Source: Pirellulales bacterium
GTDB taxonomy: Bacteria; Planctomycetota; Planctomycetia; Pirellulales; JACPPG01
Assembly (NCBI GenBank): GCA_035546535.1
Contig: DASZWQ010000083.1
Coordinates: 1-64,000 of the forward strand
Length of the DNA stretch: 64,000 nt
Reading direction: 5' to 3'
The stretch's first letter is position 1; every line of letters begins with the position of its first letter. Shown piece after piece: positions 5,207 to 12,076 of the stretch. The notes below the pieces were generated by a model that was not told the origin of the DNA, searched no databases, and worked only from the letters and a program-made list of their open reading frames with translations. Position numbers and translations under genes: made by a program.

Positions 5207-6613
5207 TCAGTCGGTGGCCCAGATGTTATTCCGCTCCTGGCCGACCGTGGCCGCCTCACCTTCGGCCGCACAGACCGTCGCGCGGTGCGGGGCCGCACCG
5301 TTTGCGTGGCCGCGGTGCGCGTCCGCCGGGTGGAATTGGGCTTCTTCCGTCGAGCCGGTCAGGGCCGTGGTCGATGCCTCGCCGCGCGAGACGCACTGCG
5401 TGACCTGGTCGAAGTAGCCGGTGCCGACGAAGCGTTGATGCTTGGTCGCCCGGTAATCCCCTTCGGCCTCGCAGGCGAACTCGCGCTCTTGTAGCGCGGC
5501 GTAGGCCGTCATGCCATGATCGCGATAGCCGCGAGCCAGCTCGTACATGGACAGGTTCAGAGCGTGGAATCCGGCCAGCGTGATGAACTGGAAGCGGTAT
5601 CCCATTGCCCCCAGCTCGCGCTGGAAACGAGCAATCGAGGCGTCGTCCAGCTTGCGCTTCCAGTTGAAGCTCGGCGAGCAGTTGTAGGCCAGCATCTTGC
5701 CGGGGAAGCGTTCGTGAACGGCCTCGGCAAACGTTCGGGCTTCCTCCAGATCGGGATGCGAGGTCTCACACCAGATCAAGTCCGCATAGGGAGCGTAGGA
5801 AATGGCCCGATCGATGGCCACTTCCAGGCCGCCGGTCATCCGGTAAAACCCTTCGGCCGTCCGCTCGCCGGTCAAAAATCGCTGGTCGCGCGCGTCGATG
5901 TCGCTGGTGACCAGGCGTGCCGCGTCGGCGTCGGTACGGGCGATCAACACCGTCGGCACGTCGAGAATGTCGGCCGCCAGGCGCGCGGTGGTCAGGGTGC
6001 GAATGAAGTGCGACGTCGGCACCAATACCTTGCCGCCCAGGTGACCGCATTTCTTTTCGCTGGCCAGTTGATCTTCGAAATGCACGGCCGCGGCGCCGGC
6101 TTCGATCATGCCCTTCATCAGCTCGAAGGCGTTGAGCGCGCCGCCGAAGCCGGCTTCGGCGTCAGCCACGATCGGCAAGAAATAATTCTTGTCTGCGCGT
6201 CCCTCGGCGTGCTGAATCTGGTCGGCCCGGCGGAAGGCGTTATTGATCTTGCGCACCACGTTCGGCACGCTGTCGGCCGGATACAGGCTCTGATCCGGAT
6301 ACATCTGGCCGGCGTTATTCGCGTCGGCCGCGACCTGCCAGCCGCTGAGATAAATCGCCTGCAAGCCGGCTTCGGCCATTTCCAAAGCCTGATTGCCGGT
6401 CAGCGCCCCCAGCGCGTGAACGTAAGGCTCGGATTGCAAAAGTTCCCACAGCCGCTCGGCCCCCATCCGGGCAAGACTGTGTTCGACGTGTACGCTGCCG
6501 CGCAGCCGCGCCACTTCCTCGGCCGTGTACTCACGGCAAATCCCTTCCCAGCGCGGGTCCGTATCCCAACGCTCCTTCAACTCTCCGATCGACGGGCAAG
6601 CACGGCGAATCAT
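5207..6613 (-). CDS. aceA: Isocitrate lyase
   Basis: Splits isocitrate into glyoxylate and succinate, the first committed step of the glyoxylate shunt, in the cytosol. The 468-residue length is close to that of enterobacterial AceA (about 434) with a C-terminal extension. The active-site signature KKCGH is at residues 187-191, with the catalytic Cys. Other family landmarks are [24 protein letters not shown] and [10 protein letters not shown]. The start has GGGGAG about 8 nt upstream. It lies 89 nt downstream of aceB on the same strand, so the two are probably co-transcribed. The last 45 or so residues (after the GEAST-like end of the family core) are low in recognisable features and may be a lineage-specific tail. 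Confidence 0.97.
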
Positions 6614-6702
6614 CTCAAACTCCCCAGAAATCCTTTAGGTGTGGCGATGCGTTACAAATCGGTGATCAACATTCTCTTTGAACTCGTGAAAGTAGCGGCG
6701 GC

Positions 6703-8313
6703 TCATGACAACTCGTCGTAGGCCGGCAACGTCAGAAACTCGACGAACTCGTCGTTCGCCACGATCTCGTCCATCAGCTCTGCGGCGCGCTCGTATTTGC
6801 CTTGCTCGAAGGCCGCGTCACCTACCGAGCCGCGGATCTTCTGCAACTCTTCGGCCAGCACCTGGCGGAACAGGTCGAGCGTGACCCGGCGGCCGTCGCT
6901 GAGCACCCCGCGCGGGTGGCGAATCCATTGCCAGATCTGCGTGCGGCAAATCTCGGCCGTGGCGGCGTCCTCCATCAGGTTGTAAATCGGCACGCAGCCT
7001 TGCCCGCGCAGCCACGATTCCAGGTACAACAGCCCCACGTTCACGTTCACCCGCAAACCGGCCTCGGTAATCGGGCCCGTGGGTACCTGCAGCAAATCGG
7101 CCGCCGTGACACGCACATCGTCGCGGCGGATGTGTACCTGGTTCGGCGTGGGCATGTGCTTGTCGAACACCTCAAGCGCCACGGCCACGAGCGCCGGATG
7201 GGCCACCCAAGTGCCGTCGTGCCCATCGGTCACTTCGCGCAGCTTGTCCTGGCGTACTTTTTCGAGCGCCGCTTCGTTGGCCGCGGTGTCCCCTTTGATC
7301 GGAATCTGCGCGGCCATTCCCCCCATCGCAAACGCGCCACGACGATGGCACGTCTTGATCAATAGTTGCGAATAGCTGCGCAGGAAGTGCGTGGCCATGG
7401 TCACCAGCGCCCGATCCGGCAGCACGTAATCGCCTCGGGCGCGGAACTTCTTGATGAAGCTGAAGATGTAGTCCCAGCGGCCGCAGTTGAGACCCACGCA
7501 ATGGTCGCGCAGCTCCCACAGGATTTCGTCCATTTCGAAAGCGGCCAGAATCGTCTCGATCAGCACCGTAGCGCGGATCGTGCTGCGCGGCAGGCCGAGC
7601 TCTTCTTCCGCGGCCACGAACACCTCGTTCCACAGCCGGGCTTCGAGATGGTTTTCCATCTTCGGCAGATAGAAGTAGGGGCCGGAGCCTTTTTCGATCA
7701 ACTGCGTCGCGTTGTGGTAGGCGAAAAGCGCGAAATCAAAGAGCGACGCCGAAACCGGCTGACCGTCGACCAACACGTGCTTCTCAACCAGGTGCCAGCC
7801 GCGCGGGCGGACCAGCAGCGTCGCCGTGTCACGATTCAGGCGGTACTCTTTCCCTTCCGGCGTCACTAGTTCGATCGTGCCGCGCACGGCGTCGCGCAGA
7901 TTGATCTGGCCCTGGATCGTCGCTTCCCACGTCGGGGCGTGCGAATCCTCGAAATCGGCCATGTACATCCGCGCGCCCGAATTGAGGGCATTGATGACCA
8001 TCTTGCGGTCGACAGGACCAGTGATCTCGACGCGACGGTCCTGCAAATCGGCGGGAACGTCCACGACCCGCCACTCGCTTTCGCGAATGCCGCGCGTCTG
8101 CGGAAGGAAATCCGGCACGTAGCCGGCGTCCAACCGCTCTTGCAACTGGCGGCGCCGGGCCAAGAGCTCGCGGCGGCGACCATTGAAGCGGCGGTGCAGC
8201 CGGGCCACGAATTCCAAAGCTTGCGGCGTCAGGATCTCGGCGAATGCGGGCGTTACGGGGGCCGTCACCAGGGCGGCCGCGAGGCGTGGGCGGGCGAGCA
8301 TCATCGAACACAT
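6703..8313 (-). CDS. aceB: Malate synthase A
   Basis: Condenses glyoxylate with acetyl-CoA to malate, the second glyoxylate-shunt step. The frame could start at 8379, but the ATG at 8313 (MCSMMLARP) has a GGGA 8-10 nt upstream and matches the expected length, giving 536 residues (E. coli AceB has 533). It aligns along its length with AceB from memory: [33 protein letters not shown], the signature region [31 protein letters not shown]-like [11 protein letters not shown], and the end [12 protein letters not shown]. The divergent LysR gene at 8560 is the natural candidate regulator. Confidence 0.97.
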
Positions 8314-8478
8314 GGAACGTTCCCTTTGCGTTGGGGCGGCGGTGGCGCGGAAGTTCTCGAGGCGCGTGGTTCCGTCCACGCTTGACCTGCGGGACTGCCC
8401 GGAACGCGAACCATTCGCTGCCCCAAGCGGCCCACTTCTGTCACGATGGTACGGCGTGAGCTATTATTTGGGAAAGTA

Positions 8479-9644: not shown

Positions 9645-9848
9645 TTAGTCCTTGGCGATCATCACGTCCGAGGCCTTGATCACGGCTGTAACGCGATCGC
9701 CGGCGGCCAACTTCATCCGCTCGGCCGAGGCCCGCGTGATGGCCGCCACGATCTCGACCCCGGCGGCAGAAATGACTACTTCCGCAGCCACGGCGCCCAG
9801 CTTTACCGCCGTGATCTGACCAGGGACCTGATTGCGTGCGCTGATCAT
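9645..9848 (-). CDS. mop: Molbindin (single TOBE domain molybdate-binding protein)
   Basis: A 67-residue protein made of one TOBE/Mop domain: SARNQVPGQITAVKLGAVAA at the start, then VVISAAGVEIVAAITRASAE and KLAAGDRVTAVIKASDVMIA, as in small molbindins that store or buffer molybdate as ring-shaped hexamers. The start ATG has an AAGGAGAT SD 4-5 nt upstream. No modABC genes are nearby, but moaC (molybdenum cofactor synthesis) lies 10 kb away in the same window. Confidence 0.92.
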   Translation of the reverse strand: MISARNQVPGQITAVKLGAVAAEVVISAAGVEIVAAITRASAERMKLAAGDRVTAVIKASDVMIAKD

Positions 9849-9907
9849 CGAAATCTCCTTGTCGTAGGCTTTATGGGTGTCGAATAGCTCGATGGTAGAA
9901 TCGTCGC

Positions 9908-10039
9908 ATGTTCGCCGTCGATATCGTTATTCACGACACCTATTTCATTCTCGATTGGCGGCTAGTGGCGGGCATCGTGAGCGCCTTGATCGTTATGGTG
10001 GCCGCCATCGCATGGCCTCTCTTAAGCAGGCGGAGATAA
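9908..10039 (+). CDS. Small membrane ORF with an IHDTYF motif
   Basis: A 43-codon ORF, too short for most gene callers. It begins MFAVDIVIHDTYF, followed by one hydrophobic segment (about residues 19-37) and a basic end SRRR. The HDTYF word resembles the HDTYYVxAHFHY motif of heme-copper oxidase subunit I and, as far as I recall, similar short HDTYF membrane proteins exist in other bacteria. There is no strong SD. It is divergent from mop with 59 bp between starts. Coding status is moderately supported by the membrane-protein pattern only. Confidence 0.45.
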   Translation: MFAVDIVIHDTYFILDWRLVAGIVSALIVMVAAIAWPLLSRRR

Positions 10040-10187: not shown

Positions 10188-11150
10188 ATGAGCGAGGACT
10201 ACTACAAGACACTCGAAGTTGCCCGCGATGCCTCGCAGGACGACATTCAAAAAGCTTATCGTCGCTTGGCGCGGAAGTACCATCCGGATCTGCATCCCGA
10301 CGACAAGGCCGCGAAGAAAAAATTTCAGGAGGTACAGGGCGCCTTCGATGTCCTGAACGATCCGAAGAAGCGCGAGATGTACGATCGCTACGGCAGCTCG
10401 TTCGAGAGCGCCGCGGCGGGTGCCGGCGCGGGAGCGGGGCCAGGCGGCCCATGGAGAACGACGGCCGGAGGTCCGGATTTCGAGAACGTCGACTTCTCGC
10501 AATTCTTCGGCGACCGTTTCGGCGGTGAGGAAGGGGGCGGCTTCGCGAGCATCTTCGGCAACCTGGGTGGGCGCGGCAAGCAACGTCGCGGTCGCGCGGC
10601 TCAGCCCGGCGCCGATTTGGAAAGCGAACTCGAGGTTCCCTTCAACACGGCCGTGCTCGGCGGCCAGGCCCAGCTCAGCGTGCGTCGGGCCACGGGAAAG
10701 GTCGACACGATCAGCGTGAAGATTCCGGCCGGGATCGAAGACGGCAAAAAAATCCGGCTGCGCGGCCAAGGTGAGCCAAGCCCGACCGGCGGCCAAAGCG
10801 GCGACATCCTGCTGACGATCCATATCGCACCGCATCCCTTCTTCCGCCGGCGCGGCGACGATTTGGACGTACGCGTGCCCGTCACCCTGCTGGAAGCGGC
10901 CGAGGGAGCAAAAGTCGAAGTCCCCACGCCGCGCGGCACCGTCAATCTGCGCGTGCCGCCGAAAACGTCCAGTGGCACCAAGCTGCGCATCAAAGGACAC
11001 GGTGTTGCCAAAAGCGGCAAAACGCCGGGCGACCTGTATGCGGAAATCGCAATTATCCTGCCCAAGCAACTTAGCTCGGAGGATATGGAACAGATTCGCG
11101 GCATGTGCCAGAAGAGCCCGATCGACCCGCGGGCCGAATTGCGATGGTAG
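10188..11150 (+). CDS. DnaJ-family co-chaperone, CbpA-like (no zinc finger)
   Basis: A 320-residue J-domain protein. The start at 10188 ([11 protein letters not shown]) is chosen because the J domain begins right there; a longer frame from 10116 adds unrelated residues. The J domain spans residues 4-69 with the HPD motif (KYHPDLHP). A Gly-rich linker with DF/GF repeats follows ([10 protein letters not shown]), then the C-terminal peptide-binding domains (about 135-310). The Cys-rich zinc finger of classical DnaJ is absent, matching CbpA/type II J proteins that stimulate DnaK. The stop overlaps the next gene's start. Confidence 0.93.
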
Positions 11151-11494
11151 TGCGCCGGTCCGCAACGCTGGTCGCTTTATGTCCGCCGCCTGCCTCGGTG
11201 TTGTTGTGGGCCTTCGTCGAGACGGCGGAATTGCCGGTCGAGCCAGTGGCCGAACTCGACCCGGCCACACGTGCTACGCTGCTTTTGGCGCTCTTGGCGA
11301 TTATCGTATTAGGTGTCGGGCTGATCGTGATGGTAATTCTCGGTGGTCGGATGGTGCGGCGGTGGGCGCGGCTCACGCCGCCATCGCGGGTGCCTGTACG
11401 CGTACCCACGCCGCCGCCGCGCGAACTTGTGATCGAATTCGACGATGACGACCCAGACGCTCCGGCTGGCGATGCAAACGATGCCAGGCCATGA
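11144..11494 (+). CDS. Small single-span membrane protein of unknown function
   Basis: A 116-residue ORF starting with ATG inside the last codons of the dnaJ-like gene. It has an N-terminal hydrophobic stretch that may be a signal ([20 protein letters not shown]), a clear membrane segment ([20 protein letters not shown], about residues 42-61), basic residues after it (RMVRRWAR), and a Pro-rich then very acidic tail (EFDDDDPD). No family was recognised. It sits between the J-protein gene and rnpA and overlaps both, so it is probably translated as part of that operon; a role in membrane protein biogenesis is only suggested by yidD downstream. Confidence 0.6.
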
Positions 11495-11840
11495 ACTGCC
11501 TGCCCAATTCCGTTTGAAGAGTCGAGAGGACTTCGCGCGCGTCTTCGAGAAGCGGGTTTCAGCGGCCGACGGTGTGCTCCGCATGTATGCGGTCGAGGGT
11601 AACGAAGCGTACCCGCGACTAGGATTGTCGGTTTCGCGCCGCGTCGGTAACGCCGTGGTGCGGAATCGCCACAAGCGGCTCTTGCGCGAAGCGTTTCGGC
11701 TGTTGCGCCCCGATTTGCCGGCGTTAGATATGGTGGTGATTCCGCACTCGCGCGGCGAGCCCGAGCTGGCCGCCTTTCAGCGATCGCTGGCCGCACTCGC
11801 GCGGCGATTGGAGCGGCGGCTGCGAAAGGAGTCGCCATGA
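11481..11840 (+). CDS. rnpA: Ribonuclease P protein component
   Basis: The protein subunit of RNase P, which assists the RNA subunit in 5' maturation of tRNAs. The diagnostic RNR region is present as VSRRVGNAVVRNRHKRLLREAF, giving a secure call. The start is uncertain: ATGs at 11445, 11472 and 11481 are all in frame, without a clear SD; 11481 gives the most family-like N-terminus (PAQFRLKSREDFARVFEK) and 119 residues. It overlaps the upstream membrane-protein gene and overlaps yidD by ATGA. rpmH, the usual upstream neighbour, is not present. Confidence 0.93.
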   Translation: MPGHELPAQFRLKSREDFARVFEKRVSAADGVLRMYAVEGNEAYPRLGLSVSRRVGNAVVRNRHKRLLREAFRLLRPDLPALDMVVIPHSRGEPELAAFQRSLAALARRLERRLRKESP

Positions 11841-12076
11841 GCGGGCTTTGGACTGCCATCCTGCGGCTGCCTGCGGAGACCTTGATTCTGGCGGTTCGGG
11901 TTTATCAATACACACTCAGCCCGATCGTCGGCCGGCAATGCCGCTTTGAGCCGACTTGCAGCCACTATTTCATCGGCGCCGTGCGCAAACACGGGGTTCT
12001 TGTCGGCACGCTCCGCGGTGTGGGCCGCATCTGCCGCTGTCACCCGTTTCACCCGGGCGGATACGACCCTCCTTAG
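11837..12076 (+). CDS. yidD: Membrane protein insertion efficiency factor YidD
   Basis: A 79-residue protein with the full YidD/DUF37 signature: YQYTLSPIVGRQCRFEPTCSHYF, with the two conserved Cys, then RICRCHPFHPGGYDPP at the end. YidD is a membrane-associated helper of YidC-dependent insertion. The start overlaps rnpA by ATGA. yidC itself, normally next, is missing; an unrelated lipoprotein gene follows after about 280 bp with no recognisable gene. Confidence 0.96.
   Translation: MSGLWTAILRLPAETLILAVRVYQYTLSPIVGRQCRFEPTCSHYFIGAVRKHGVLVGTLRGVGRICRCHPFHPGGYDPP

Follow-up and report, generated by a model that had tools for sequence, protein, structure and literature searches.

The 64,000-nucleotide stretch of Pirellulales bacterium DNA analysed here (the window) contains a short open reading frame (ORF) on the plus strand (9908..10039), which runs from ATG to TAA and encodes a protein of 43 aa (translation MFAVDIVIHDTYFILDWRLVAGIVSALIVMVAAIAWPLLSRRR). 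The ATG is the first start codon of a 46-codon open frame. The ORF is flanked on one side by a divergent TOBE/Mop gene on the minus strand (9645-9848), across a 59-base spacer (9849..9907) in which no Shine-Dalgarno-like stretch was seen by eye, and on the other side by a DnaJ-family gene on the plus strand (10188-11150). The encoded protein consists of MFAVDIVIHDTYF, followed by a single hydrophobic helix and a basic tail. Its plus-strand features comprise a predicted β-hairpin, VDIVIH-DTYFILD, with a loop like that of cytochrome oxidase subunit I (COX1) at codons 3-16 (9914..9955); the motif DIVIHDTYF (9920..9946), whose D5, H9 and D10 correspond to COX1 D364, H368 and D369 (ovine/bovine numbering); a single predicted transmembrane helix at residues 17-41 in an AlphaFold2 model (9956..10030); and, from the translation, a basic RRR end (10028..10036), which we take to be cytoplasmic by the positive-inside rule. 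The window holds a single occurrence of the coding form of DxxxIHDTYF, against an expectation of 0.00; none of 100 shuffles of the window contained one. A gene of 43 residues is one that annotation would miss. Elsewhere in the window, inspection by eye identified the pair rnpA-yidD (for ribonuclease P protein and the membrane insertion factor YidD, 11445-12076), as well as minus-strand genes for isocitrate lyase and malate synthase (5207-8379), adjoined by a LysR regulator (PF03466, PF00126).

Searches with the single protein gave little. The one Pfam return was DUF553 (E 0.1, under the cut-off), with no COX1 match; NCBIfam returned no match; and the sole match in the plasmid collection was a Rhizobium ctaD at E 7. 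Against PDB sequences, a weak COX1 alignment was obtained (E 1.8), placing D5, H9 and D10 on D364, H368 and D369. A relative that is 48% identical across 42 residues (E 9.2e-7) was present in another genome of the same genus (G003), and the ORF is therefore not a chance frame. Free-standing homologues were found in two of the five genomes of the genus (the window genome, G000, and G003), in 7 of 396 genomes sampled from the order and in 2 of 170 from another family. Iterated searches added short frames in G257, G050, G028, G715, G827, G018 and G1038, giving conserved free-standing ORFs in nine planctomycete genomes in all. What these forms of 37-47 residues have in common is the pattern [DE]-[ILVF]-x-I-H-D-[TA]-Y, a single helix and a basic end. 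In an alignment of eight of them, I, H, D and Y of the word and the basic end were present in 8/8, and the position four before the histidine was D or E. The earlier note had described a 43-residue membrane ORF with an HDTYF word, of a kind that gene callers would miss, and had left open whether it was a real small protein or a chance match; translation, the shuffles and the G003 homologue bear out the description, and the conserved frames in related planctomycetes and in Bacteroidota (below) support the real protein over the chance match. The outcome that the note had named as refuting, a frame that is not conserved in related genomes, was looked for and did not occur.

The homologues lie in differing gene neighbourhoods, and planctomycete families differ in their neighbours; shared neighbours among the planctomycete loci were seen only within the pair of Schlesneria genomes and between G028 and G715. 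The ORF is not tied to mop, next to which the earlier note had advised looking for it: the congener copy adjoins DksA-like and LspA-like genes (named by eye). Across the family, 122 of 145 listed neighbour proteins were scanned. Among these, the commonest family occurred in 4, and no toxin, defence or regulatory gene was enriched; nor did any conserved neighbour, there or in the comparison of planctomycete loci, point to oxidase assembly.

In three pairs of planctomycete frames, amino-acid-changing differences were fewer than silent ones. For G000/G003, dN/dS was 0.37 (Fisher p 0.006), which is weak by simulation (P 0.14), and for the Schlesneria pair 0.25 (Fisher p 0.008), likewise weak (P 0.06). 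The signal was strong for the first 23 codons of G028/G715, with 11.5 differences over 18.7 silent sites versus 3.5 over 50.3 replacement sites (p 5e-6), although in the G715 assembly the frame does not continue intact beyond 24 codons.

A pattern scan over 84,980 species, in which COX1 was excluded by forbidding the second HxH histidine, gave 50 matches, seven of which (L071, L085, L088, L093, L097, L109 and L111) were dropped by eye as unrelated. The remaining 43 are related small membrane proteins, 40 from Bacteroidota and three from Planctomycetota. Most of the Bacteroidota relatives have 66-190 aa and carry the word [IL]DI[NHQ][LIV]HDTY[FY]V between two hydrophobic stretches. Their size is bridged to that of the planctomycete forms by a 71-codon Flavobacterium frame and by L254, which starts with TTG and has 45 aa and one helix. 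D, H, D, T and Y were invariant in an alignment of 35 of the 40 (three were cut by the locus end, one was an odd long frame and one a near-duplicate). An hhalign comparison of the planctomycete and Bacteroidota alignments gave E 7.4e-10, mostly from the word. The window ORF fits the common pattern: it is short and free-standing, carries [DE]xx[ILV]HD[TA]Y and continues with a helix and a basic end. We name this family mini-COX1 (its members, minis); the window ORF is a real gene that encodes a one-helix inner-membrane microprotein belonging to it. The family is apparently undescribed, as no description of such small proteins was found in open PubMed Central. The strict motif pattern had no matches in viral contigs. 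Within the order of Flavobacterium tistrianum, 95 of 148 genomes held at least one copy of the word, and ten of these at least two; the words in G1129 and G1202 are COX1. No genome with a mini and without COX1 was found in the stretches examined, which covered a minority of the single words. The words in G1191 and G1232:C5 (single or extra) look like mitochondrial COX1 contamination.

The Bacteroidota minis resemble the C-terminal part of COX1. COX1 models aligned with this part in several relatives, with best E values of 5.4e-7 (TIGR02891) and 1.4e-5 (PF00115), below cut-off; the best PF00115 score was 24.6 bits against a cut-off of 34.8, among ten proteins scanned, including nine relatives from other loci, two of these being planctomycete minis. 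The Bacteroidota profile searched against 177,635 PDB sequences found COX1 in 35/35 matches at E<=1 (best 1.1e-9), and hhalign to planctomycete COX1 gave E 5e-12 over 121 columns. Excising the motif left the minis collinear with COX1 in the same register (E 3.8e-5 to 7.6e-4). When the word was masked, one type of mini matched COX1 helices X-XII (best E 2.7e-9) and another type (L078, L081) the helix III-IV region (best 3e-7); separate outer-face parts of COX1 have thus been placed on different scaffolds. The planctomycete profile matched no PDB chain at E<=1. Descent of the planctomycete forms from COX1 is likely rather than proven, because what they share with it is the word and a helix of similar length.

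Three loops are kept among the minis, DxxxHDTY, PRRYY and GWTxYPPLS, which hold Asp364, His368, Arg438 and Tyr129 (Arg438 and Tyr129 were numbered by counting from PDB alignments). The planctomycete forms carry one COX1 loop only, and many of the larger minis keep a second (PRRYY in 4/36 and YPP in 5/36, by the regular expressions used). In COX1, the HxH that follows HDTY provides axial haem ligands. The window ORF has the DxxxHDTY loop of the propionate/Mg site and lacks the HxH after HDTYxxxx, with ILDWRLV where COX1 has VAHFHYV; HxH is absent in nearly all relatives. Direct haem ligation by the minis was therefore rejected as unlikely. The 167-codon mini L257 (G1156:C5) has EHLH after the word, with a histidine at both COX1 haem-ligand positions, and is a possible intermediate. 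The earlier reading of the motif was thus correct in relating a real small protein to the HDTYY segment of COX1, and is not supported in its haem-ligand part, since what is kept is the propionate/Mg loop D364/H368/D369 and HxH is replaced by LDWRL. In a passage of PMC10194837, the residues listed as surrounding the Mg-water cluster include Tyr129, Asp364, His368 and Arg438. According to a passage of PMC5947679, the haem a3 propionate forms hydrogen bonds with COX1 Asp364 and His368, and Mg is bound through Glu198 of subunit II.

Minis and COX1 (PF00115 / TIGR02891) have in common the loop DxxxHDTY[FY] between helices IX and X, and the Bacteroidota relatives additionally share helices X-XII or the III-IV region and the PRRY or YPPLS loops. 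They differ in size (free-standing genes of 37-190 aa versus about 600 for COX1); in score, the minis falling below every curated cut-off; in HxH, which nearly all minis lack; and in the predicted hairpin, where COX1 passes from loop to helix. COX1 has twelve transmembrane helices, and the ORF protein one predicted helix. Like microproteins derived from larger enzymes, which are small and free-standing and keep one contact piece of the larger homologue, minis retain a contact piece of COX1; unlike them, minis combine outer loops from separate parts of the parent and co-vary with it, and their partner is putative. They resemble CydX and CcoS, which are small oxidase subunits or assembly peptides, in size, in having one helix and in a presumed role with a respiratory oxidase, whereas they lie outside any oxidase operon and reproduce a loop that belongs to the catalytic subunit itself.

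AlphaFold2, run on the ORF protein with eight homologues, predicted strands at 3-8 and 11-16 and a helix at 17-41 (mean pLDDT 87.9), and the same hairpin was predicted for a Bacteroidota mini. Since helix X of COX1 sets in with the residues that follow HDTY, the modelled hairpin may differ in shape from the parent segment. Foldseek on both models gave no match at E<=0.001 and no COX1. VIA-align gave only helical bundles with Z under 8; COX1 was not among them, a result that does not by itself indicate a different fold.

The word varies at the residue two before HDTY (position -2). In 31 of 33 Bacteroidota genomes, this residue (N, H, Q, P, T or S) was the same in the mini and in the genome's own COX1, compared with a mean of 11.8 and a maximum of 22 in 20,000 shuffled pairings; position -1 agreed in 19 (shuffle mean 11.2, maximum 18). 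Seven of the 40 genomes were set aside, six with at least three matches (ambiguous) and G1081, and in 7/7 of these the mini and the presumed COX1 word shared the -2 letter. In planctomycetes, -2 matched the IHDTYFIV-type COX1 in 8 of 9 genomes, including Y in both Schlesneria. The mismatch is the window genome itself, with V in the mini versus F in the nearer COX1 and H in the second. A second COX1 word with H at -2, differing from the mini, is present in G000, G003 and G1038. Lineage words are also common to the flanks of minis and COX1, namely PRRYYAF(S/T)EF (G1051), GVPRRYYTNSN (G1056), YPPLSAVP (G1057) and NSAIDIP (G1080).

Codon identity at matching residues was nearly equal for own (127/264) and foreign COX1 (3394/7563), which argues against copying, and recent gene conversion from COX1 was rejected on this ground. 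Minis with different -2 residues were homologous outside the word in 26 of 75 related pairs, the best being L076 (N) versus L086 (H) at E 2e-23; the -2 residue has therefore changed within one family. On a tree of 31 minis, nine changes of the mini residue and nine of the COX1 residue were reconstructed, with 29/31 matching. A tree-aware co-variation test was not significant, being underpowered with only two independent pairs on supported branches. Within the family, the sequences thus show that the word changes at its variable residue in step with the COX1 of the same genome.

We propose that minis are lineage-matched mimics of the COX1 outer face that act in oxidase assembly through its partner, a reading to which we assign a probability of roughly 45%. 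The peptide would insert with its N-terminus outside and display the hairpin D5-x3-H9-D10-T-Y-F; this outer-face presentation of the word is suggested by the basic C-terminus and by COX1 topology. The hairpin would resemble the COX1 segment that covers haem a3 from the outer (P) side, beside subunit II. The mini could then bind whatever recognises that face, with subunit II (CuA domain) or a factor inserting copper or haem as the likeliest candidates, and hold or regulate this partner during oxidase assembly; the choice of subunit II is a guess. A shared protein partner that varies by lineage best explains why -2, -1 and the loop flanks match in protein while codons do not. Haem or Mg alone would not drive this matching. 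The role of an assembly peptide, raised earlier, is possible, although the sporadic distribution of minis is unlike that of a core assembly factor and counts against it. Also counting against the proposal are the lack of a conserved neighbour linked to oxidase assembly, the -2 mismatch in the window genome, the non-significant tree-aware test, the hairpin modelled where COX1 starts a helix, the missing COX1 matches in Foldseek and in the PDB search with the planctomycete profile, and the single loop of the planctomycete forms.

A broader and more tentative version is that widespread, unannotated microproteins of Bacteroidota and Planctomycetota show lineage-matched COX1 outer loops, co-evolve with COX1 via a shared docking partner and serve as placeholder or regulator while the enzyme is built. 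The loops, drawn from non-adjacent parts of COX1 and carried on scaffolds of 1-4 helices, would wall the Mg-water cluster above haem a3, and the docking partner would probably be subunit II or the factor that loads it with copper or haem. Were this so, small mimics of the catalytic subunit would serve bacteria in regulating or building aa3-type oxidases, a step invisible to annotation. The tracking at -2 would help in searching for the protein that recognises this COX1 face and in probing the assembly of subunit II, copper and haem, and genes of 37-47 residues missed by ordinary callers would become recognisable through co-variation with a large enzyme.

Two alternatives, both unlikely and about equally so, keep a function for the minis. 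One is that the D-x3-H-D hairpin itself binds Mg2+/Mn2+ or haem propionates, for example as an outer-face holder of haem A, with no protein partner. D, H and D are indeed the most conserved residues (35/35 in Bacteroidota; H and D 8/8 in planctomycetes, with D or E at -4), and their COX1 counterparts Asp364 and His368 contact the propionate in the account cited above. However, such a ligand is identical in all lineages and would not make -2 follow the own COX1, and the HxH ligands are lost. The other is a decoy or brake, the mini competing with COX1 for a partner and so delaying assembly, or absorbing an outside agent that attacks the COX1 outer face. Sporadic presence, scaffolds of 1-4 helices, mixed loops and solitary genes suit such an accessory or defensive role more than a core factor, whereas the lack of enriched toxin, defence or regulatory genes among the scanned neighbours and of strict-pattern matches in viral contigs speaks against it.

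Repeated birth, in which COX1 fragments captured in each lineage decay without a common function, is less probable still. The Schlesneria mini and COX1 words differ by 2/27 bases, the G715 frame is broken and L257 keeps HxH; against this stand the homology outside the word between minis of different -2 type, a codon choice independent of the own COX1 and the excess of silent over replacement changes. A chance ORF with a chance word has next to no probability: the frame is short and absent from three of five congeners, and two of the three selection comparisons are weak by simulation, but the nine genomes with homologues and the 40 relatives from Bacteroidota, against a chance expectation of 0.00, already refute it.

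Several loci found by the scans deserve mention in their own right. Two Flavobacteriales assemblies (L250, L252) hold short, mitochondrial-looking COX1 pieces that are probably contamination. One Flavobacterium carries tandem minis, both with DINIHDTYY (L070, 1259-1426 and 2044-2241). In Sinomicrobium weinanense, a CDP-alcohol phosphatidyltransferase (PF01066, E 8e-16; L097, about 6595-7347) carries DINIHDTYFVIAYESF, the same word as in the minis, where the protein seems to outrun the Pfam profile.
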